The position numbers and the translations under genes were made by a program. Below the pieces are notes generated by a model, which did no database searches, had not been told where the DNA came from, and was given only the letters and a program-made list of their open reading frames with translations. 35,654 bases of DNA from a virus, in IMG/VR virus record IMGVR_UViG_3300037199_000131, positions 1 through 35,654 of that record. The stretch is one strand, 5' to 3'. Positions 27,502 to 35,654 of the stretch are shown one piece after another; within the stretch, counting starts at the first letter, position 1, and every line of letters begins with the position of its first letter.

Positions 27502-27888
27502 CTACGGCACTACGAACAGATTCCGATCCGGAGACGCGGCGATTGTAGCTCGCGGGCCATGCGGGACCACTATGCAACCCGTAGAAATCTTCCCCCGTAG
27601 ATCCGGATCGATCGCGTCCCCGTGAAACAAAAACCCCGAGCGCTCGAATGTGTTGGTTCCCAGCTTGGGCGCGAGGTGCATCACCACCGGCCCGCGCTCC
27701 GGGTCGGTGAACGGGGCACCGATAGTGTATGCGCCCTGGGGAATCGGCCCAACGTCGGGGATCTCCTGTTTCGCCGGATCATTCAGCCCTTCCGGCGATC
27801 CCGCGTAACAGGCCGTCGTCAGAGTTCCGAGAGAGTTGTCCGAGCCGATGCGCCAAAGGGTGTGCTTGGACTGCGAATAGATCCACAT
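27502..27888 (-). CDS. Tlde1/DUF2778-like peptidoglycan enzyme (endolysin candidate), 128 aa
   Basis: I take ATG at 27886-27888 (GGAGAG upstream; its A overlaps the stop of the preceding mini-ORF as TAATG). The frame stays open upstream as a Val/Gly repeat, which I reject as coding. The domain fills the protein: YAGSPEGLNDPAKQEIPDVG then PIPQGAY, RGPVVMHLAP, RSGFLFHGD (His89) and STGCIVV (Cys105). This order of GPIP-x-G-x-Y, HG-[DT] and S-x-GCI is that of the DUF2778/Tlde1 family, whose L,D-transpeptidase-type Cys/His pair acts on peptide stems. It has no signal peptide and lies beside a holin-like gene, so it is the likely lysis enzyme. Confidence 0.82.
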   Translation of the reverse strand: MWIYSQSKHTLWRIGSDNSLGTLTTACYAGSPEGLNDPAKQEIPDVGPIPQGAYTIGAPFTDPERGPVVMHLAPKLGTNTFERSGFLFHGDAIDPDLRGKISTGCIVVPHGPRATIAASPDRNLFVVP

Positions 27889-28094
27889 TAATGGCTCTCC
27901 GACCCCGACCCCGACCACGAGCGCGACGACGACCACGACGCCGACGCCGACCGCGACTCCGACCGCGACCGCGACCACCCCGCCCACGCCCCCACCCACG
28001 CCCCCACCCACGACAGTGACCACGACAGCGACCGCGACCCCGACCCCGACCACGACACGGACCACTGAGTTCCGGCCGACAGCGCGCTCACCAT
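27888..28094 (-). CDS. Ser-X/Trp mini-ORF L4, 68 aa, coupled to the lysis enzyme
   Basis: The start ATG is in the CCATGG at 28091-28096 with GGAGAG 6 nt upstream. It opens MVSALSAGTQWSVSWSGSGS, then has alternating Ser-X residues with a Trp/Gly/Val/Ala patch (SWVGAWVGAWAGWS), and ends SGSGSESH followed by TAA. The stop overlaps the lysis enzyme's ATG (TAATG), a classic coupling layout. A beta strand with Ser on one face is expected. Low complexity and the lack of known relatives mean expression is unproven. Confidence 0.5.
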   Translation of the reverse strand: MVSALSAGTQWSVSWSGSGSRSLSWSLSWVGAWVGAWAGWSRSRSESRSASASWSSSRSWSGSGSESH

Positions 28095-28312
28095 GGGTGA
28101 CTCCCCGACGCCGACGCCGACCACAACCCCGACCCCGACCACGACTCCGACGCCGACCGCGACCCCGACGCCGGCCACAACCCCGACCCCGACCGCGACT
28201 CCGACCACGCCCCCGCCCCTGTACACGACCACGACCGCGACCGCGACCGCGACCACCCCGACCCCGACCACGACACGGACCACTGAGTTCCGGCCGACAG
28301 CGCGCTCACCAT
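28088..28312 (-). CDS. Ser-X/Trp mini-ORF L3, 74 aa
   Basis: The start ATG is in the CCATGG at 28309-28314 behind GGAGAG. It opens with the same MVSALSAGTQWSVSWSGSG as L2 and L4. The middle carries SWSCTGAGAWSESRSGSGLW, then PASGSRSASESWSGSG and an SASASGSHPW end. The last two codons and stop (CCA TGG TGA) contain the start of L4. Its central and C-terminal part is nearly the same as that of R2 in the other array, showing exchange between arrays. Confidence 0.5.
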   Translation of the reverse strand: MVSALSAGTQWSVSWSGSGWSRSRSRSWSCTGAGAWSESRSGSGLWPASGSRSASESWSGSGLWSASASGSHPW

Positions 28313-28455
28313 GGGTGGCTCTCCGACCCCGACCCCGACCACGAGCGCGACGACGACCACGACGCCGACCGCGACTCCGACCGCGACAGCGACCGCGACC
28401 CCGACCCCGACCACGACACGGACCACTGAGTTCCGGCCGACAGCGCGCTCACCAT
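28306..28455 (-). CDS. Ser-X/Trp mini-ORF L2, 49 aa
   Basis: The start ATG is in the CCATGG at 28452-28457, with GGGGAG 6 nt upstream inside L1. It opens MVSALSAGTQWSVSWSGSGS, has the body RSLSRSESRSASWSSSRSWS and ends GSESHPW-stop, overlapping the start of L3 through CCATGGTGA. Strict alternation of Ser with Arg, Glu, Trp, Gly or Leu spans almost the whole length. Confidence 0.5.
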   Translation of the reverse strand: MVSALSAGTQWSVSWSGSGSRSLSRSESRSASWSSSRSWSGSGSESHPW

Positions 28456-28535
28456 GGGTGACTCCCCGACCCCGACCACGACCACCGCGACCGCGACGCC
28501 GACCCCCGAGCTCCCGCCGCCAGCGCGCTTACCAT
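28449..28535 (-). CDS. Ser-X/Trp mini-ORF L1, 28 aa
   Basis: The first unit of the left array. The start ATG at 28533-28535 directly follows the nuclease stop (TAACCATGG), with GAGG 6 nt upstream inside the nuclease gene. The peptide opens MVSALAAGARGSASRSRWSW and ends SGSGSHPW. CCATGGTGA then starts L2. It is the shortest and most divergent at its start (LAAGAR in place of LSAGTQ). Confidence 0.45.
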   Translation of the reverse strand: MVSALAAGARGSASRSRWSWSGSGSHPW

Positions 28536-28537
28536 GG

Positions 28538-28960
28538 TTACCTCGCTGGAAAGCGTTTCACTGCCGGTTGCAACTTAGATCCGAAGATAAACTTGCTGCG
28601 CCTCGGCTCCTTCTTGAGCCGCTCCGCCATTTCGCGCATCGCCGCTTTGTTGTCTTCTGCCTCAGGGCCCGTGATCCCGACCGCGTCGAGTGCCTCTGAA
28701 ATCGACCGAACGATCCGCACGCGTACGCCAACCACTTTCCAAGACACATGCTCGAATGCCTGGTCTGCCTCGACGTGGTTTCGGCCGGCCGGGTTCTTCA
28801 CCTCGAGTAGGTATAGGTTTCCGAACCGACCCACGAGCAGATCCGGGCATCCCGCAAGCGACACGTCGAGCACCAGGACCTTGCAGCCCACGCGCTCCAG
28901 GGCGGTCGTGATCTCGTGTTGGTTTCTATCCACGTTTGCGCCGAATCTGGGTTTTGTCAC
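28538..28960 (-). CDS. VRR-NUC/PD-(D/E)XK-type nuclease, 140 aa
   Basis: The start GTG at 28958-28960 overlaps the upstream stop (GTGA). The motif series is Glu16 in NQHEITTAL, Asp40 in GCPDLLVG, and Glu53-Val-Lys55 in LYLLEVKNP, which is the PD-(D/E)XK core as in VRR-NUC and Holliday-junction-type nucleases. The basic C-terminus (KKEPRRSKFIFGSKLQPAVK) may bind DNA. It closes the leftward replication operon, so it probably resolves branched DNA or trims replication intermediates. Its stop abuts the first mini-ORF of the left array. Confidence 0.82.
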   Translation of the reverse strand: MTKPRFGANVDRNQHEITTALERVGCKVLVLDVSLAGCPDLLVGRFGNLYLLEVKNPAGRNHVEADQAFEHVSWKVVGVRVRIVRSISEALDAVGITGPEAEDNKAAMREMAERLKKEPRRSKFIFGSKLQPAVKRFPAR

Positions 28961-29133
28961 TGCGCCACCTCCGCGTATGTCGCCGCAGCCTTAAGCACCA
29001 TGTCAAGTATCTGGAGTGCGCCGATTTTGTCTCCCGACTTCCACGCGTCTCGCGCCGCTGCCAGCATGTCGGAGACGAGCGTATCGGCGATGCGCGCCTT
29101 TAGCCTCTGCGACACTGCTGGTTGGGCGCTCAC
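28957..29133 (-). CDS. Small helical protein, 58 aa
   Basis: GTG at 29131-29133 overlaps the helicase stop, and its stop TGA overlaps the nuclease GTG, both as GTGA. The sequence is helical (RLKARIADTLVSDMLAAARD, KIGALQILDMVLKAAATYAE). No family is recognised. Being locked between the helicase and nuclease genes supports coding and a role in replication or recombination. Confidence 0.65.
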   Translation of the reverse strand: MSAQPAVSQRLKARIADTLVSDMLAAARDAWKSGDKIGALQILDMVLKAAATYAEVAQ

Positions 29134-30044
29134 TTAGGTAGCCTCTCAGTGACACAACCCGTGGCGCCATGCATTTCATATATGAGAACAGCGTCGGGTA
29201 CGCCCCTACGATTCTTCAGCACGTAGCCGTCAAGCTGCGACACCGGCCCCTCGTCCCCCGGCGACCGCTTCCTGCGCCGCAATCCGATCACCACGTCGCT
29301 CCAATGGTCAATTAGCGCCGACCCGCGAAAGTCAGACATTCTAGGTGGCCGATCTTCACCGTCCTCGATCTTCCGATTGAGCTGGCACAGGGCGACTACT
29401 AGCGGCTTGTACCCGATGCGGTAGCGGCACTCTCCACGCGAGAGCGCCCGCAGTCCGCCGATAGCCTCGCCGAGTACTGAGGAATCGTCGAAGATCCAAC
29501 GCCCGCGCGCATCCCGTCGGCCAATCATACCGAGGTAATCGACGAACACAACGTCAGCATCGCCGTCGCACGCTCCGTGAAGCACCTCCTCTACTGTTCG
29601 TCCCTTTTCCGCTCCTGTGTGCAAAAAAAGGTTCTCTGATAGATTCTCCCACTCGGACACTCCACGATCCCAGCGCGCCTGAGCCTCTTCGTCGAACGGC
29701 CACGAATCCTTGGCGAACGCCTGCTCTATTCGGCCCACCGTGATGCCCGAGAGTTGAGCGATCGCGAGCGTGGTCATTTCCTCTTCCGTCAGTTCCAGCG
29801 CCTCGAATACGACACGCTGACCTAATCGAGCCATCTTGAGCGCAATACTCCAGGCCCACGAGGTCTTGCCGTCACCAGGTCGCCCGCCTACGCTCCACAG
29901 TTTCCGCGCTTGGGGCTGACACAGCCGCTCCATCCGAGGGCAGCCCATTTTCAGCGGACGGATCTCGGCCATCTGAGCCGTTGCCCGATCCACCGAGTTC
30001 AGCCTCGGCTCGAGCGATTGCATTGCTCCAACGAGCTTCGTCAC
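29130..30044 (-). CDS. DnaB-type replicative helicase (RecA-like domain only), 304 aa
   Basis: GTG at 30044 has a strong GGAGGTGG site 3 nt before it. Motifs: Walker A GGRPGDGKTS (53-62), an acidic motif-1a region (FEALELTEEEM, ~80-90), Walker B ADVVFVDYLG (163-172) and the DnaB motif series QLNRKIEDG (221-229) with PPRMSDFRGSALIDH (233-247), then Arg-rich motif RRRKR. It lacks the N-terminal DnaB domain of full-length helicases, as in several phages. Its first ~57 codons overlap the 3' end of the replication-protein gene by 173 nt, so the overlap is genuine. It likely unwinds the phage origin with that partner. Confidence 0.9.
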   Translation of the reverse strand: MTKLVGAMQSLEPRLNSVDRATAQMAEIRPLKMGCPRMERLCQPQARKLWSVGGRPGDGKTSWAWSIALKMARLGQRVVFEALELTEEEMTTLAIAQLSGITVGRIEQAFAKDSWPFDEEAQARWDRGVSEWENLSENLFLHTGAEKGRTVEEVLHGACDGDADVVFVDYLGMIGRRDARGRWIFDDSSVLGEAIGGLRALSRGECRYRIGYKPLVVALCQLNRKIEDGEDRPPRMSDFRGSALIDHWSDVVIGLRRRKRSPGDEGPVSQLDGYVLKNRRGVPDAVLIYEMHGATGCVTERLPK

Positions 30045-30765
30045 GGTCCACCTCCGTCGAGTTCCAGAATTGCGCGAGTTGAGCCACGGTGCGAACGGTC
30101 GGGTAGCCCTTGTGCCGCAGGGCCGACCGCCAGCGGAGATCGATTTCGGCGGGCGTCGCGGAGGCCAGCAGCCGCTTCAATGCCGCCCCGTCCCGTCCGT
30201 AGGCGAAGAGGTACTTCGCCCCCGCCCCCATCACTTCCTCAAAAACAGTCTCGAGGCGGAGCCGCGTGGGGCCAAAGAGGGGCGACGAGGCCGGCCGGCG
30301 CTTGTCGCCGGGTGTTTCTTCTGTTTCTTCTCTCTGCTTCTTCTGCCTTCTTCTACTAGAGTGTTCCGCTTCTCGATCCAAGGGTGTTCCGGTACCCGTT
30401 CCGCTACCCGCGGGCTCGTGTTGATAGGTCGCGAATTTAACTCGGGTTATCCTGGACGGCGAGCCGTTCCGCTTCTCGATCCAAGGGCGTTCCGCTTCCG
30501 CTACCAAGAGCCCGGCCCTGATCGCCTCATGGAGAGCTCGGTGTGTGGTCGTGAGCGGGACCGTCTGCTTGTGGTGCGGACCGCTCAGATATCGCGAGAG
30601 TTGACGCAGAGTTACGAGAGCCGTCCCGGAATCGTCGGCGTTTTCCTCTACCCAGATCACGATCAGTTTGGCGGGTAGACCTATGCCCCGAAACGACGAC
30701 CCCTCCCGCCACCTGCGGCGCCACGCCTTTCTCCACGGTTTCGTCCCCTCGGGCGCGTCGCTCAC
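29872..30765 (-). CDS. Replication initiation / helicase-loader protein (phage O/DnaD-like), 297 aa
   Basis: I prefer GTG at 30763-30765, which overlaps the upstream stop as GTGA. A GTG at 30795 would add 10 residues. Residues ~20-115 look like a winged-helix domain (PAKLIVIWVEENADDSGTAL, TLRQLSRYLSGPHHKQT, THRALHEAIRAGLLV). A basic, disordered linker follows (EHSSRRRQKKQREETEE), then a helical C-terminal domain with PAEIDLRWRSALRH and QLAQFWNS. That is the O-protein/DnaD layout found next to phage helicases. The acidic C-terminus overlaps the helicase gene. Confidence 0.78.
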   Translation of the reverse strand: MSDAPEGTKPWRKAWRRRWREGSSFRGIGLPAKLIVIWVEENADDSGTALVTLRQLSRYLSGPHHKQTVPLTTTHRALHEAIRAGLLVAEAERPWIEKRNGSPSRITRVKFATYQHEPAGSGTGTGTPLDREAEHSSRRRQKKQREETEETPGDKRRPASSPLFGPTRLRLETVFEEVMGAGAKYLFAYGRDGAALKRLLASATPAEIDLRWRSALRHKGYPTVRTVAQLAQFWNSTEVDRDEARWSNAIARAEAELGGSGNGSDGRDPSAENGLPSDGAAVSAPSAETVERRRATW

Positions 30766-30971
30766 GGGAGGGGTTCCCTTGCGCGCTGGTGACACACGAT
30801 CTCAGCGTCGGCGAGTAGCGACTGAGCGCGCGCGAAATGCCGAGCCGCCTGAGCCCAGTGTGCTCGCTGAGCCGATACCCCCGTGACGGTTTTAGCCGTC
30901 AGAGCCTCACGCACCGCCCCCTCGACCGCAACCGACACGTCCGACAGACAATCTCGCAGTTCAGAACCCAT
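30762..30971 (-). CDS. Small helical protein, 69 aa
   Basis: I chose ATG at 30969-30971 with GGTGAGGTGG upstream. A GTG at 31085 would overlap the small membrane gene. It is an Ala-rich helical protein (DCLSDVSVAVEGAVREALTA, RAHWAQAARHFARAQSLLAD). It is coupled to the replication gene by GTGA. Unknown role in the early operon. Confidence 0.6.
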   Translation of the reverse strand: MGSELRDCLSDVSVAVEGAVREALTAKTVTGVSAQRAHWAQAARHFARAQSLLADAEIVCHQRAREPLP

Positions 30972-30978
30972 TGCCACC

Positions 30979-31140
30979 TCACCTACAGTAACGCAAAACG
31001 ATAGCCGCCGCGCCGAACCACGCAACGCACGACACGGTGACCGCCCCGGCCAACCCGAGCCAACACGGGGGCTCCTCGATCTCACTGAGCGGCGGAGGGT
31101 CTCGCACGATTTCGAAAAGGGGCGTCTGTTTGGATCTCAT
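30979..31140 (-). CDS. Small single-span membrane protein, 53 aa
   Basis: ATG at 31138-31140 overlaps the HTH gene stop by 4 nt (ATGA). The stop TGA is 7 nt before the next ATG. The first ~27 residues are acidic and Pro-rich (EIVRDPPPLSEIEEPP). Residues ~29-50 form a transmembrane segment (GLAGAVTVSCVAWFGAAAIV). Membrane proteins of this size next to phage regulators can act in exclusion or lysis control, but that is speculation here. Confidence 0.6.
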   Translation of the reverse strand: MRSKQTPLFEIVRDPPPLSEIEEPPCWLGLAGAVTVSCVAWFGAAAIVLRYCR

Positions 31141-31334
31141 CTGAGCCACTCGCACGGAGCGATTTTCGTAACAGACTCGATCCGCAGAGCCAACGCAAGC
31201 CCGGGTGTGCGTCTACCCGCCAGCAACCCGCATACCGTGGCCTGCGAGCACCTGAATTTCCGTGCCAACTCCACCTGCGTCCAGTTGCGCTGGTACTGCA
31301 GGAGTAGCGCGACCGCCCTTGCTGGATTTTCCAT
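31137..31334 (-). CDS. HTH (XRE/Cro-type) transcription regulator, 65 aa
   Basis: The HTH spans about residues 18-45: QVELARKFRCSQATVCGLLA then GRRTPGLALAL, with the Q-x-x-LA...C-S-Q-x-TV-x-x-L pattern of Cro/CI proteins. Length fits a Cro-type or minimal repressor. The ATG at 31334 lies 6 nt from a TAATAT -10 box and lacks a ribosome site, so its mRNA is probably leaderless, as for lambda cI from PRM. It heads the leftward replication operon and faces the rightward operon across an AT-rich control region, where it most likely binds. Confidence 0.85.
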   Translation of the reverse strand: MENPARAVALLLQYQRNWTQVELARKFRCSQATVCGLLAGRRTPGLALALRIESVTKIAPCEWLR

Positions 31335-31429
31335 AGGTTTATATTACTCGATTCATTTCTGTTGACAACGTTTATTTGTTGGCTCATAACACACGCATCC
31401 TGCATGGAGCAGGGATAGAGGGACGCACA
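31335..31429. promoter_or_regulatory. Divergent promoter/operator region
   Basis: This is the AT-rich gap between the HTH gene and the 31430 gene. Rightward promoter: TTGACA (31362-31367), 17 nt, CATAAC (31385-31390). Leftward promoter: TTGTCA (31363-31368 read on the minus strand), 16 nt, TAATAT (31341-31346). The two -35 boxes share five bases within the near-palindrome GTTGACAAC (31361-31369), so a regulator bound there would affect both. That palindrome is the best operator candidate. Confidence 0.7.
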
Positions 31430-31720
31430 ATGGACCGCGAAACCGCCTGGCAGACCCACTGCGATTCAATGGCTTCCGGCTGCGACCTGGAAGCGCTTGC
31501 CGAGCAATTCTATGCGCTCGCCTACGAGACCGACCCCAACGCGAGCGCGGAGCAGAGGCAGTCCCTGATCGCCCATCACACGCAGATGTCGCGGTCCTGC
31601 GAACAGCGAGCGCGTCGCTACCGCGCAATGGGCGCAGGGGATTGGGAGGGCGCCGACGCCGAGGCGGCTCGCGCGTTCGGTGGCGAAGACGAAAAGAAGG
31701 GGTCGAGCCAGCCATGGTGA
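31430..31720 (+). CDS. Small acidic helical protein, 96 aa, ends in SSQPW
   Basis: ATG at 31430 behind GAGGGACGCACA. It is helical and acidic (DLEALAEQFYALAYETDPNA, EQRARRYRAMGAGDWEGADA). The final residues Gln-Pro-Trp and stop are encoded by CAGCCATGGTGA, which also contains the start of the first right-hand mini-ORF. So this ordinary-looking gene is the head of the right chain. It is first in the rightward operon, where antirepressors or regulators often lie. Function not recognised. Confidence 0.7.
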   Translation: MDRETAWQTHCDSMASGCDLEALAEQFYALAYETDPNASAEQRQSLIAHHTQMSRSCEQRARRYRAMGAGDWEGADAEAARAFGGEDEKKGSSQPW

Positions 31721-31929
31721 GCGCGACGGTCGGGGCTAGGTGGTCGCGGTCGGGGTTGTGGTCGTCGTCGGGGTCGCGGGCGGGGTCGTGGTCGTGGTCG
31801 CTGTCGGGGGCGGGGTTTTCGCGTTCGCGGTCGTGGTCGTGTACAGGGGCGGGGGCGTGGTCGGAGTCTCGGGCGGCGTCGGCGTCGCGGGCGCGGTCGT
31901 GGGCGTGGTCGGGGAGCCAGCCATGGTGA
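31714..31929 (+). CDS. Ser-X/Trp mini-ORF R1, 71 aa
   Basis: The start ATG is in the CCATGG at 31712-31717, overlapping the stop of the 96-aa gene; the ribosome site (AAGGGG) is 11 nt upstream. It opens MVSATVGARWSRSGLWSSSG. The body has SWSWSLSGAGFSRSRSWSCT and GAGAWSES, and it ends SWAWSGSQPW. Its stop sits in the CCATGGTGA that starts R2. It shares SRSWSCTGAGAWSESR with L3 of the other array. Confidence 0.5.
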   Translation: MVSATVGARWSRSGLWSSSGSRAGSWSWSLSGAGFSRSRSWSCTGAGAWSESRAASASRARSWAWSGSQPW

Positions 31930-32189
31930 GCGCGACGGCGGTCGGGGCTAGGTGGTCGCGGTCGGGTTTGTGGTCGTCGTCGGAGTCATGGGCGGGGTCG
32001 CTGTCGTGGTCGCTGTCGTGGGCGGGGTTTTCGCGGGCGCGGTCGGAGTCGGGCACAGGGGCGGGGGCGTGGTCGGAGTCGGGGTCGGGGTCGGGGTTGT
32101 GGCCGGCGTCGGCGTCGGGGTCGCGGTCGGCGTCGGAGTCGTGGTCGGGGTCGGGGTTGTGGTCGGCGTCGGCGTCGGGGAGGCGATAG
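31923..32189 (+). CDS. Ser-X/Trp mini-ORF R2, 88 aa, upstream of the exonuclease
   Basis: The start ATG is in the CCATGG at 31921-31926 with GGGGAG 6 nt upstream. It opens MVSATAVGARWSRSGLWSSS, contains SLSWSLSWAG and TGAGAWSESGSGSGLW, and ends SASASGRR-stop. The TAG at 32187-32189 is 2 nt before the exonuclease ATG, which has its own GGGGAGG site inside this ORF. It is the only unit besides L4 not ending Pro-Trp, and both are the last of their chains. Confidence 0.5.
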   Translation: MVSATAVGARWSRSGLWSSSESWAGSLSWSLSWAGFSRARSESGTGAGAWSESGSGSGLWPASASGSRSASESWSGSGLWSASASGRR

Positions 32190-32191
32190 CC

Positions 32192-32968
32192 ATGGCCCTG
32201 GACCTCACCTCGGTCAGCCCGTCGCTTTTATGGAACATGAACACCTCGCCGGGAGCGTACCGGTACCGGGTCACGACCCCGTTCGAGGGAACGCCTCAAA
32301 CCGTGTTCGGTCAGCTAGTAGACGGACATTTGACCGGCGTCGGGCTGGATCGGTTCTGCGTATGTGGCGTCGACAAGCGGACCAAGGAGTACAAGGCGTT
32401 CCAGGCCCAAAACGAGGGGAAGGAGATCATCTCCCGCGACGTATGGGACGAGGCGGTGGAGTGCGCCGCTGCGGCCCGCTCTAATCCTCTCGTGGCCGAG
32501 ATTCTATCGGCGGGCCAGCCACAGGTTGCGCTGAAATGGGTTGACGAGGAGACCCAGCTCGTGATCTCGGGTCGCCTCGACTGGCTCTCGGATTCGACGG
32601 GGCTCGCGCCAGATATCAAGACGACAGCGAAGGGTCTCGCCGTCCGGCAGATCGCGAACACAGTGTCCGATCGCGGGTACCACGTACAGAACGCGCTCTA
32701 CCGGATGGGGCTCAAGGTTATGGGGCTGCCCTACGACGTTGGCTGGGTTTTTATCGAGTCCTCGCCTCCCTACGACTCCGTCGTCTACCGATTGAGTGAC
32801 GTACAGGAGGAGGATTGCGAACGCGAGGCGCGACGGCTGCTCCGGAAGGTCCGGCGGTGCCTCGACGCGAACTCGTGGCCTGGCGTCGCTGGTCCGACAC
32901 CCGGGGTTCAGTCATTAGTCCTACCGTTCTGGGCTTTCGGCCCGCGCATTGAGGAGGAACAACCGTGA
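32192..32968 (+). CDS. RecB/RecE-like (PD-(D/E)XK, DUF3799-type) exonuclease, 258 aa
   Basis: ATG at 32192 follows GGGGAGG at 8 nt. Motifs: GRLDWL (Asp130), PDIKTT (Asp141, Lys143) and the RecB-family HVQNALY (Gln166, Tyr170). The N-terminus (SLLWNMNTSPGAYRYR) resembles the substrate-binding part of DUF3799/Cas4-like proteins. A 4-bp GTGA overlap links it to the ERF annealing gene. Together they form a two-protein recombination system in which the nuclease resects a 5' strand and the annealer pairs the exposed ends. Part of its C-terminus is duplicated at 33753-33861. Confidence 0.85.
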   Translation: MALDLTSVSPSLLWNMNTSPGAYRYRVTTPFEGTPQTVFGQLVDGHLTGVGLDRFCVCGVDKRTKEYKAFQAQNEGKEIISRDVWDEAVECAAAARSNPLVAEILSAGQPQVALKWVDEETQLVISGRLDWLSDSTGLAPDIKTTAKGLAVRQIANTVSDRGYHVQNALYRMGLKVMGLPYDVGWVFIESSPPYDSVVYRLSDVQEEDCEREARRLLRKVRRCLDANSWPGVAGPTPGVQSLVLPFWAFGPRIEEEQP

Positions 32969-33645
32969 TCACATCAGACAAGACCGGCGAGATAGCGAAA
33001 GCCCTCGCCGCCGCACAAACCCAGCTCGGACCGGTGCTCAGGGACAAGACGGTGCGCGTCTCTGGGGATAAGGGGACATATACGTTCGACTACGCGGATT
33101 TGGCCTCGGTGGTCGAGGTGTGCCGTACCGCTCTCTCCCAACAGTCAATCGCGATTGTGCAGGGAGTAGAAACGGAGCAAGGGGGAGTGAAGGTCGAAAC
33201 GCGACTCATTCACTCGTCCGGTGAGTGGCTCTCCTCTGCGATCACGATGCGGGGCGCCGCAGACAAGCCACAAGCAGTTGGCTCCCTGATCACCTACGCG
33301 CGCCGATACGCCCTGTCGGCAATGGTAGGAGTAGCCTCGGAAGAGGACGACGACGCCAATGTGGCCGAGGGCAACTCGCGACAAATATCCACGCGGCCCC
33401 TAAGCCCCCAGGCCCAGGCACGCTCCGCTGCCGTCAAGGCCGGGAAAGATCCCGTGGCGCGACTCGAGGCCGTGAAGGCGCGGGCCCTGAAGCTGTACGC
33501 AAACATCCCCGACGCGAAGTCGCAGCTAGGGACGTGCCTTGGCAGAACCTTTGGAGAGGGGCCTATCGCCGGTCTGTCAGAGGCGGAACTTGACCAGGCG
33601 GAAGCGTGGCTAACGCTAGAGCAGGCCGCAAAGGCGAAGGGCTAG
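32965..33645 (+). CDS. erf: ERF-family single-strand annealing protein, 226 aa
   Basis: GTG at 32965 overlaps the exonuclease stop; GAGGAGG lies upstream. Residues ~1-145 carry the ERF signature: EIAKALAAAQTQLGPVLRD, GTYTFDYADLASVVEVCR, TRLIHSSGEWLSS and GSLITYARRYALSAMVGVAS (the GS-x-x-TYA-RRY-x-LS core), then acidic EEDDDAN. The C-terminal ~80 residues are helical and variable, as usual. It anneals complementary single strands during phage recombination or genome circularisation. Confidence 0.93.
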   Translation: MITSDKTGEIAKALAAAQTQLGPVLRDKTVRVSGDKGTYTFDYADLASVVEVCRTALSQQSIAIVQGVETEQGGVKVETRLIHSSGEWLSSAITMRGAADKPQAVGSLITYARRYALSAMVGVASEEDDDANVAEGNSRQISTRPLSPQAQARSAAVKAGKDPVARLEAVKARALKLYANIPDAKSQLGTCLGRTFGEGPIAGLSEAELDQAEAWLTLEQAAKAKG

Positions 33646-33946: not shown

Positions 33947-34234
33947 ATGGCAACGAAGGCAAAGATTCAGCAGTATCCGATCCTCCAGCTCGGACGAGCA
34001 GTGATCATCCGTACGGTAACGTTCCACTACGTCGGCCGCGTTGTGGCGCTCGACAATAACTGGGTCACGCTCTCGGATGCGGCGTGGGTAGCGGACTCGG
34101 GCAGGTGGTCGGACGCGCTCCGGACTGGGGTGTTGAAGGAGGTTGAGCCGTACCCCAACCCCGTGGACGTGGGGCGGGAGACCATAGTCGACGTGACCAC
34201 CTGGGACCATTCGCTTCCGCTGGATCAGAAGTGA
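33947..34234 (+). CDS. Small protein, 95 aa, end of the rightward operon
   Basis: ATG at 33947 is preceded by a strong AAGGAGAG. The frame is also open from a GTG at 33857 (125 aa), where the duplicated erf start lies, but the ribosome site favours 33947. The protein is beta-rich with Trp and Val (AVIIRTVTFHYVGRVVALDN, NWVTLSDAAWVADSGRW) and resembles small phage proteins with an Sm-like or SH3-like barrel, which is only an impression. A strong hairpin follows 12 nt after the stop. Confidence 0.7.
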   Translation: MATKAKIQQYPILQLGRAVIIRTVTFHYVGRVVALDNNWVTLSDAAWVADSGRWSDALRTGVLKEVEPYPNPVDVGRETIVDVTTWDHSLPLDQK

Positions 34235-34246
34235 AGTAACAACAGA

Positions 34247-34295
34247 GATCGCGCGCAGCCGGGCCGTCGTGGTTCGGGCCCGGCTGCGCGCGATC
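34247..34295. terminator. Bidirectional terminator hairpin
   Basis: A 19-bp perfect inverted repeat (34247-34265 and 34277-34295) with an 11-nt loop lies between convergent genes: the rightward operon end at 34234 and the late operon end at 34330. No clear U-tract on either side, but position and stem strength fit termination in both directions. A stray CCATGGTGAG (34306-34314) like the array punctuation follows it. Confidence 0.8.
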
Positions 34296-34329
34296 ACGGA
34301 GCTACCCATGGTGAGAGCGTTGGCGGTCG

Positions 34330-35654
34330 CTACCGTCCCCTATACACCCGTCGCTGGTAATCAGGGCTGATCTGTTGGCCGATGAAGTCGGCGGCGGGGT
34401 TGGCGGTGCGGGCCCGGTCGAAGGACGGCGCTTTCTGCTCTAGCCAGCCGTGGAGCTCGTCCTGGTTTACCTCGCCACAGCCGTGGAGCTCGTCCTGGTT
34501 TACCTCGCCACCATGGGCCATATTGTTGGCTTTCTTGACGGCATTTATTCTATTAGCGTCGATGAGCTTTTCTTTGAGCGTTACGGCTCGGGCGCCAGTA
34601 GGCGGCGAGGTCGACTCAAACACCGCGCGTCCAGTACGAATCAGGTTTCGCAGGTCTCCTCCTTCTCCACGCGCGTAGGGGCTACCCACATCCTTTTTGA
34701 GAGCGCTTTCGAGCTGGAACGAGCCGAATCCACCCGGTCGGTCTCCTGCCCGGAATTGAGCATTCTCCAGAATTTTGTAATTTCGATACTGATTGTCAGT
34801 AGTTTTCAGCTTCTGAGCCATCTCCTTTGGAAGACCGTCTTCAATGGCTTCCGTTGTGGCGTCTTCGGCTTGGGACAGCATTTTTTGTACGGCATTAGAT
34901 TGCGTAGGGCTAATCTCATCCCGAATGTTTGAACGGATTTGCATCAGCTGCTCGACTGGGACCTGACCCTCCTCATTCGGCTTTAGTATTGTCGTTTGCG
35001 CCTTCAAGAATTTTGAGACAGCGTGTCTATCGGGGTCCCCGGCCAAAATCCTGTCATTATTGGCAGCTTGCTCAAAGGCATCAGGTAGTGATTGAGGGCC
35101 AGCGTTGAGAGGAACATACGCGCCCTTGATTTCGCTGTATGCTGGCTCGAATCCTTGATAGATTTTAGCAAGCTTATCGCTGACGGAAGGCTCCTGGGCT
35201 ACGTCTTCCCAGTTTAGGCCCTCGGGCAACGCTTTCCTAAGACCGAGATTCTGCCAGGCTTGACGAGCAGCCTCACGTTTCGCATATATCTCGGGACCGA
35301 TATCCGGGCTCGATAGTAATGCCTGTTCAGTAATGCCGATATCAGACCGAGGCGCTAGCTGGCCCGCTGTTAGTCGCGTTTGGTCTCCTACGTTTGCAAA
35401 TTGCTTATTTAGCTCGGTAGCCTCTGGGATTATTTGCTTAGGTGTGATGCCAGCTCTGGCAAACCTTTGGCTGAGTGGGGTTTCTGATTCCCTATTAACA
35501 GTGGTAAATGATTTAAAATCGGCTTGTTTTTCTGGGGGTATTCCATTGGGGAAATCTATCTTGGCTTGGGCGGCAGCTACGGTGGGCTGAGGCCCGTTGG
35601 CTAGAGCTATTTCTTCGGGCCCGGCGCCTATCGCCGAGCCCCAACGAGCTATTT
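34330..35654 (-). CDS. Repeat-containing internal virion (ejection) protein, C-terminal part
   Basis: The frame is open from the window end to TAG at 34330-34332 and joins the 1-1132 part through the 105-bp overlap, giving about 783 aa in total. This ~406-residue part begins within the 44-aa repeat, then is helical and charged (KLAKIYQGFEPAYSEIKGAY, VEQLMQIRSNIRDEISPTQS, KMLSQAEDATTEAIEDGL). Near the end it has HGGEVNQDELHG, an 11-residue phrase duplicated in tandem (33-bp repeat, 34446-34511), then RTANPAADFIGQQ and a basic tail. The ATG near 35229 is internal, not the start. Probably ejected with the DNA. Confidence 0.72.
   Translation of the reverse strand, partial: IARWGSAIGAGPEEIALANGPQPTVAAAQAKIDFPNGIPPEKQADFKSFTTVNRESETPLSQRFARAGITPKQIIPEATELNKQFANVGDQTRLTAGQLAPRSDIGITEQALLSSPDIGPEIYAKREAARQAWQNLGLRKALPEGLNWEDVAQEPSVSDKLAKIYQGFEPAYSEIKGAYVPLNAGPQSLPDAFEQAANNDRILAGDPDRHAVSKFLKAQTTILKPNEEGQVPVEQLMQIRSNIRDEISPTQSNAVQKMLSQAEDATTEAIEDGLPKEMAQKLKTTDNQYRNYKILENAQFRAGDRPGGFGSFQLESALKKDVGSPYARGEGGDLRNLIRTGRAVFESTSPPTGARAVTLKEKLIDANRINAVKKANNMAHGGEVNQDELHGCGEVNQDELHGWLEQKAPSFDRARTANPAADFIGQQISPDYQRRVYRGR
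34446..34511. repeat. 33-bp tandem repeat (2 copies), in-frame 11-aa
   Basis: Two adjacent identical 33-bp units (34446-34478, 34479-34511) in the minus-strand gene encode GEVNQDELHG plus Cys or Trp. The first codon after each unit differs only by context. This is a second in-frame expansion in the same gene as the 132-bp repeat. Confidence 0.92.
35543..35654. repeat. Partial copy of the 132-bp tandem repeat at the window end
   Basis: From ccattgg at 35543 the sequence follows the 132-bp unit up to base 105 of the unit at 35654. Bases 35550-35654 equal 1-105. If the genome is circular this is the first copy of the array at 1-391. Confidence 0.93.

Follow-up and report, generated by a model that had tools for sequence, protein, structure and literature searches.

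Serine-dipeptide repeat genes in uncultured tailed phages and a linked gene for a predicted Sm-like protein

The IMG/VR record IMGVR_UViG_3300037199_000131 is a tailed-phage sequence of 35,654 nucleotides (nt) that was analysed in full and is called the window here; genes for terminase, portal protein, DnaB-type helicase, exonuclease VIII and ERF are present in it. At two places it carries runs of a G-rich hexamer, GTCGNN, and the question is whether these runs are simple repeats or genes. An initial annotation, made from the DNA letters, had read them as two chains of small open reading frames (ORFs), L1 to L4 on the minus strand (28, 49, 74 and 68 amino acids, aa) and R1 and R2 on the plus strand (71 and 88 aa), in which serine alternates with another residue (Ser-X). 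Judged by comparison with other phages, the Ser-X ORFs are very probably members of a real protein-coding family. This family is widespread, and its members are usually preceded by a gene for a predicted Sm/LSm-like protein. The initial annotation overlooked the spread of the family, the existence of this partner gene and its presence in the window.

The Ser-X frame in the window and in other phages

The six ORFs were found with exactly the lengths and sequences described. All of them begin with MVSA, and L1, L2, L3 and R1 end in Pro-Trp-stop, as does the gene before R1. The ORFs are joined by CCATGGTGA, which is read as Pro-Trp-stop in one frame and holds Met-Val of the next, giving 7-nt overlaps; it occurs in the chains three times on the minus strand and twice on the plus strand, against a chance expectation of 0.21. 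The described chain ends were likewise confirmed: L4 runs through TAATG into a lysis-type gene, and 2 nt separate the stop of R2 from the ATG of an exonuclease VIII-like gene. G-rich motifs had been noted 6 nt before five of the six starts. Hexamers that resemble ribosome-binding sites stand at this distance before L2, L3, L4 and R2, but L1 has GAGG 5 nt before its start and R1 has no site. A sixth copy of CCATGGTGA (34306-34314) faces the start of an ORF on the minus strand and has no link to a Ser-X ORF.

The hexamer repeat is far above chance in the window, with 68 GGTCGNGGTCGNGG-like matches where 0.7 would be expected. The GTCGNN units are nearly stop-free in most of their other frames too, so the open Ser-X frame is weak coding evidence there. 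Because most frames are open and substitutions between the units show no third-position excess (98:74:38 by codon position; these counts were not used as support), coding cannot be claimed from the window alone.

The relatives decide this question. Strict runs of GGTCGNG-type hexamers were collected from viral contigs, which gave 69 usable arrays among the matches listed, and an ORF was called compact when its ATG lay at most 120 nt before the array and its stop at most 60 nt after it. Compact ORFs were present in the Ser-X frame of 33 of these 69 arrays, compared with 1 to 6 for each of the other five frames. Among 104 GTCGNG arrays from bacterial genomes, no frame stood out (5 for Ser-X and 1 to 8 for the others); a generic GC-rich repeat is ruled out by this lack of excess. 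Examples from phages are L198 (MARSSKQKYRSLWSRSGSR...), L147 (MNAAVMRAGFDMSGSGSRS...) and L139, which has at least three tandem copies of MNPAIQAWSGSW.... The proposal that coding takes place in the Ser-X frame was thus borne out in this sample and also in the samples fetched by the partner gene (see below). Moreover, chains of Ser-X ORFs were seen again in unrelated phages, with 4-nt overlaps (L379, L433, L418, L412 and L425), with 9-nt gaps (L376 and L380) or, in MW202825, a public record, as an ORF pair linked by ATGAAATGA. Because tandem chains recur with other joints, CCATGGTGA is a local variant of a design that recurs. As a search marker, CCATGGTGAGCGCG served poorly: alone it was too common, and with hexamers attached it gave only four chance-like matches. 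One member is already annotated as a hypothetical protein (UOF78858.1 in MW202573).

What is kept in these arrays is the protein. Within an array the serine codon is nearly uniform (median purity of 1.0), and between arrays it changes: the dominant codon of 84 long arrays was TCG in 38, TCT in 33, AGC in 8, TCA in 4 and TCC in 1, and in a second sample TCG in 25, TCT in 16, AGC in 11, TCA in 7, AGT in 2 and TCC in 1. Thus, all six serine codons serve as array codon across phages and the residue remains Ser. A DNA element with a fixed GTCG core is ruled out, since other phages use TCT, TCA, AGC, AGT or TCC. Because TCN and AGY codons are not interchangeable by a single synonymous step, the same peptide pattern probably arose more than once. 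Trp, Arg and Gly together account for 86% of the X residues in the 84 arrays, and all three are present in 80 of these arrays (53 of 54 in the second sample). Near-identical orthologues (L376/L380 and L383/L384) differ by interior insertions or deletions of 6, 12 and 60 nt, all multiples of 6, and frameshifts with the hexamer DNA retained were not seen among them. This agrees with the growth and shrinkage by modules that the initial annotation had envisaged, as ORF lengths differ by whole dipeptide units and the frame is kept. In the non-repeat heads of the ORFs, variation was highest at third positions (549 of 1047 and 199 of 367), in a set chosen by amino-acid motif, a choice biased towards synonymous differences; the head MRGLKQKY occurs in synonymous spellings in six phages. 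Arrays in which codons vary and the peptide stays constant are a clean natural case of repeat homogenisation together with protein-level selection.

A linked gene with a predicted Sm-like fold

The gene directly 5' of the Ser-X ORFs of relatives usually encodes a protein of about 90-120 aa, which falls into two classes (motifs AAWIADTGRF and YETG...DAQ.LP) that are homologous to each other (hhalign, 96% over 47 columns). Its stop codon often overlaps the Ser-X ATG by 4 nt (ATGA), an arrangement from which we infer that the two are probably co-translated. Among the array-fetched loci with a Ser-X frame, 59 of 89 also hold the partner gene. Loci were also fetched by the partner alone, which gave 80 loci (69 distinct) for the first class and 67 distinct loci for the second. 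A Ser-X ORF lies just downstream in 58 of the 69 distinct first-class loci, and within 3 kb on the same strand in 70 of the 80. For the second class it lies just downstream in 62 of 67, and three of the five exceptions are at most 100 nt from where the contig ends. The ATGA overlap prevails in these partner-fetched loci. As a control, 119 unrelated phage loci totalling 1.09 Mb contained neither the partner nor a Ser-[Trp/Arg/Gly] ORF, only two ordinary Ser-rich frames. A functional link between the Ser-X and Sm-like proteins is likely. In phage loci of 33% GC (L444-L448), the ORF after the partner is longer, rich in Cys, Ser and Tyr and without regular Ser-X, possibly a decayed or alternative companion.

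Two narrow motif scans returned 405 and 95 partner-coding stretches from uncultured phages; among GenBank phage records the partner was present in two Manatee Spring metagenome records only. A search through 1,078 genomes of four phyla yielded a single match, in the phylum group of a Myxococcales metagenome-assembled genome (G833, locus L450). There, a 92.7-kb contig carries the partner, then a Ser-X ORF with a GTG start, flanked by phage-like ORFs. This contig may be a binned phage contig, so no host is assigned from it. The neighbours of Ser-X and partner loci are often recombination and replication genes. By the two scan counts, a gene family that is hidden by simple-repeat filters seems common among uncultured tailed phages, and annotation pipelines should stop masking such arrays.

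Both partner classes are predicted to have Sm/LSm-like folds. The AlphaFold model of the window partner with 35 homologues had a predicted local distance difference test score (pLDDT) of 93.2 and a predicted template modelling score of 0.82. In VIA-align all 50 matches shown belonged to Sm/LSm/SmAP, as chains or as complexes, with Z reaching 9.1, and in a Foldseek search of PDB nearly all were Sm/LSm (best E 2.2e-3), the few others being NatC, Mnx and Edc3-type chains. The second-class model (pLDDT 79.8) again matched Sm/LSm (Foldseek E 1.0e-3, Z up to 10.8) and has the Sm order, a short helix followed by five strands. By sequence, neither the Ser-X protein nor the partner scored above the cut-off in Pfam, PHROGs or NCBIfam, and the partner members tested had no meaningful match there or among PDB sequences.

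The models thus point to beta-barrels resembling the core proteins of small nuclear ribonucleoproteins (snRNPs) and archaeal SmAP of the Hfq superfamily, although the partner, which may be a distant homologue, has no sequence match to solved chains or Pfam, and the window-class model lacks the N-terminal helix and inserts an additional one between strands 3 and 4. Sm/LSm proteins form RNA-binding rings of six or seven subunits. SmB, SmD1 and SmD3 bear Arg-Gly tails; in the phages, the Ser/Arg/Gly/Trp chain is instead a separate, apparently coupled gene. In eukaryotic SR proteins, the RS domains are long low-complexity stretches rich in Ser-Arg dipeptides, phosphorylated by SR kinases, tied to RNA-binding modules and partly alike in composition, whereas phage Ser-X is a separate small protein with Trp or Gly at about half of its X positions. 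At Foldseek E 7e-4 and 20% identity, the partner also resembles predicted structures (BFVD models) that bear the name DUF6948 and come from uncultured Caudovirales phages, although it has no Pfam match by sequence; no mention of DUF6948 was found in the open-licence literature searched. No publication on Ser-X or on the partner pairing was found in that literature either (unpublished or subscription-only descriptions are possible), so the family and its pairing are apparently undescribed.

Possible roles of the pair

On balance, and with some reserve, we favour the reading that the proteins of a widespread (Ser-X)n phage family act with the Sm-like partner on RNA or single-stranded DNA in the early stages of infection. 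Ser-X would be a disordered chain, in most cases basic, whose Arg and Trp residues serve as stickers separated by Ser and Gly spacers. It would bind the Sm-like protein, perhaps a ring, and the RNA or single-stranded DNA held by it, and the two would scaffold nucleoprotein assemblies or condensates in the early replication and recombination phase. Chains of overlapping ORFs would raise the dose of Ser-X, and recombination between hexamers would alter its length with the frame intact. In one relative (L472) Tyr replaces Trp (X is Tyr in 11, Arg in 8 and Gly in 7 positions), which fits an aromatic sticker. The comparisons show a conserved peptide pattern, the gene order with its overlap, a predicted fold and neighbouring recombination or replication genes, whereas translational coupling, binding between the two proteins, nucleic-acid binding and condensate formation are inferred. 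That the pair is indeed a nucleoprotein scaffold or condensate is a tentative suggestion. Rather doubtful is its most specific form, a two-gene, snRNP-like phage module in which an Sm/LSm-fold RNA-binding ring and a separately encoded, length-variable Ser-Arg/Trp/Gly sticker-spacer protein form replication condensates, as a phage analogue of Sm cores with RG or RS tails. The predicted Sm-like partner suggests that phages use the Sm-plus-low-complexity arrangement known from eukaryotic ribonucleoproteins.

Several points weigh against the scaffold. Translation of Ser-X, its binding to the Sm-like protein and the condensates are putative, as are the ring and its RNA binding, and the Foldseek E-values of the partner are only about 1e-3. 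X codons are 83% NGG, whose one free base yields exactly Trp, Arg and Gly (33 arrays use CGG alone for Arg, and 28 use AGG alone), so the composition of X could partly follow from the DNA. Synonymous change is scarce within arrays; this is not classical purifying selection, and homogenisation is needed to explain it. Presumably recombination requires near-identical hexamers, and the NGG codons are the set that allows a switch between Trp, Arg and Gly by a single base. Finally, the window copies are atypical (broader X, MVSA heads, weak net charge, detachment from the partner), and R1 lacks a ribosome site.

Among the alternatives, a toxin-like two-gene module survives best and is unlikely. Ser-X would then be a membrane-active or host-inhibiting Trp/Arg-rich peptide that the Sm-like protein regulates or neutralises. 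Two small coupled genes, a composition of 18% Lys plus Arg and 11% Trp in relatives, and the Tlde1-domain lysis-type gene adjoining the L chain would suit it. However, Ser-X has no hydrophobic segment and about half of its residues are Ser or Gly, the genes often nearby are those for recombination and replication, and the window has six Ser-X ORFs with only one, detached, Sm-like gene found.

The initial annotation had offered two roles, small surface or aggregating peptides, or leaders tuning translation of the downstream genes, here the lysis-type enzyme and the exonuclease. Leaders are rather improbable. The chains do end exactly at the next gene and their ORFs overlap one another, but the constant neighbour in relatives is the upstream Sm-like gene and the downstream genes vary; moreover, a leader need not keep Ser-[Trp/Arg/Gly] over 30-100 residues across six Ser codons. 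The surface role was not supported. Staphylococcal Sdr/Clf adhesins also carry a Ser-X dipeptide repeat, Ser-Asp, and composition gave matches at E 0.05-0.2, far below the cut-off; their X is acidic and the repeat forms the stalk of a large anchored surface protein, whereas the window ORFs have 28-88 aa, Trp/Arg/Gly as X and no anchor.

Selfish or neutral expansion of hexamers, with the open Ser-X frame as a by-product and functionless peptides, is a quite improbable account of the arrays. GTCGNN repeats are indeed stop-free in nearly all frames, similar arrays without Ser-X ORFs exist in bacterial genomes, and the Ser codon is near-uniform inside one array. Against this stand the constancy of Ser while its codon switches among all six, even between AGC/AGT and TCN, the tight start and stop round the array in the Ser-X frame only, the near-constant linkage to one partner gene and the third-position variation in the heads. 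Hardly credible is coding by the opposite strand, as Thr-Pro/Ala-rich mucin-like peptides whose start lies in the palindrome CCATGG (opposite R1, for example, MAGSPTTPTT...TATT-stop). Changes at the sixth hexamer base would be synonymous there, at the third position of a Thr codon, and an ATG-to-TAG ORF runs antisense to R1 and another to R2. However, a compact ORF in the antisense frames is seen in only 1-4 of the 69 arrays against 33 for Ser-X, and relatives with AGC, TCT or TCA lose the antisense Thr-Pro.

The window copies and their surroundings

The window is a rearranged, looser member of the Ser-X family, assigned by protein pattern, with its two chains apart from the partner; by comparison with relatives, the chains consist of members that have been duplicated in tandem and have diverged somewhat. 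Trp, Arg and Gly occupy 64% of the X positions in the window, with Ala, Glu and Leu added, compared with 86% in relatives. An automatic detector (Ser at every second residue, at least eight dipeptides) passed L2, L3, L4 and R2, and R1 and the short L1 were recognised by eye only. Instead of the usual heads (MNxA..R.GFD or M..KQKY type), the ORFs have MVSA; many relatives have other heads too. The window partner lies 1.76 kb after the R chain, whereas in relatives it is directly upstream of a Ser-X ORF. It is followed not by a Ser-X ORF but by a G+C-rich long inverted repeat (34250-34300), a hairpin that is terminator-like without a T run.

Table 1. Positions of Ser-X ORFs, linkers, the partner gene and neighbouring genes in the window
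Feature	Position	Strand	Evidence
Ser-X ORF L1, 28 aa, MVSALAAGARGSASRSRWSWSGSGSHPW	28449..28535	-	ORF read; frame via relatives
Ser-X ORF L2, 49 aa, start overlaps L1 stop by 7 nt	28306..28455	-	
Ser-X ORF L3, 74 aa, start overlaps L2 stop by 7 nt	28088..28312	-	
Ser-X ORF L4, 68 aa, stop overlaps start of next gene (TAATG)	27888..28094	-	
Ser-X ORF R1, 71 aa, start overlaps stop of preceding gene by 7 nt	31714..31929	+	
Ser-X ORF R2, 88 aa, stop 2 nt 5' of exonuclease ATG	31923..32189	+	
Linker CCATGGTGA, L3/L4 (Pro-Trp-stop / Met-Val)	28088..28096	-	
Linker CCATGGTGA, L2/L3	28306..28314	-	
Linker CCATGGTGA, L1/L2	28449..28457	-	
Linker CCATGGTGA, upstream gene/R1	31712..31720	+	
Linker CCATGGTGA, R1/R2	31921..31929	+	
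Partner, predicted Sm/LSm-like, 95 aa, AAWVADSGRW class	33947..34234	+	hmmsearch E 8e-31; AlphaFold pLDDT 93.2
Gene 5' of L chain, endonuclease / Holliday-junction-resolvase-like	28538..28960	-	PHROGs phrog_93 E 1.6e-8, phrog_5702 E 4.9e-6
Gene 3' of L chain, Tlde1-domain (peptidoglycan-acting), lysis-type	27502..27888	-	Pfam PF10908 E 1.9e-8
Gene 5' of R1, 95 aa, no family match, C-terminus SSQPW-stop	31433..31720	+	
Exonuclease VIII-like gene 3' of R chain	32192..32968	+	PHROGs phrog_412 E 6.9e-44; Pfam DUF3799
ERF-type single-stranded-DNA-annealing protein, between R chain and partner	32965..33645	+	

Close relatives of the window phage were sought via its exonuclease, helicase and terminase, and none were found. 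Two other repeats were noted in the window. An exact tandem repeat of 132 bp in three copies (100% identity) occupies positions 1-391 at the contig start and may be a coding repeat or an assembly end effect, and a 33-bp exact direct repeat in two copies lies at 34445-34511.

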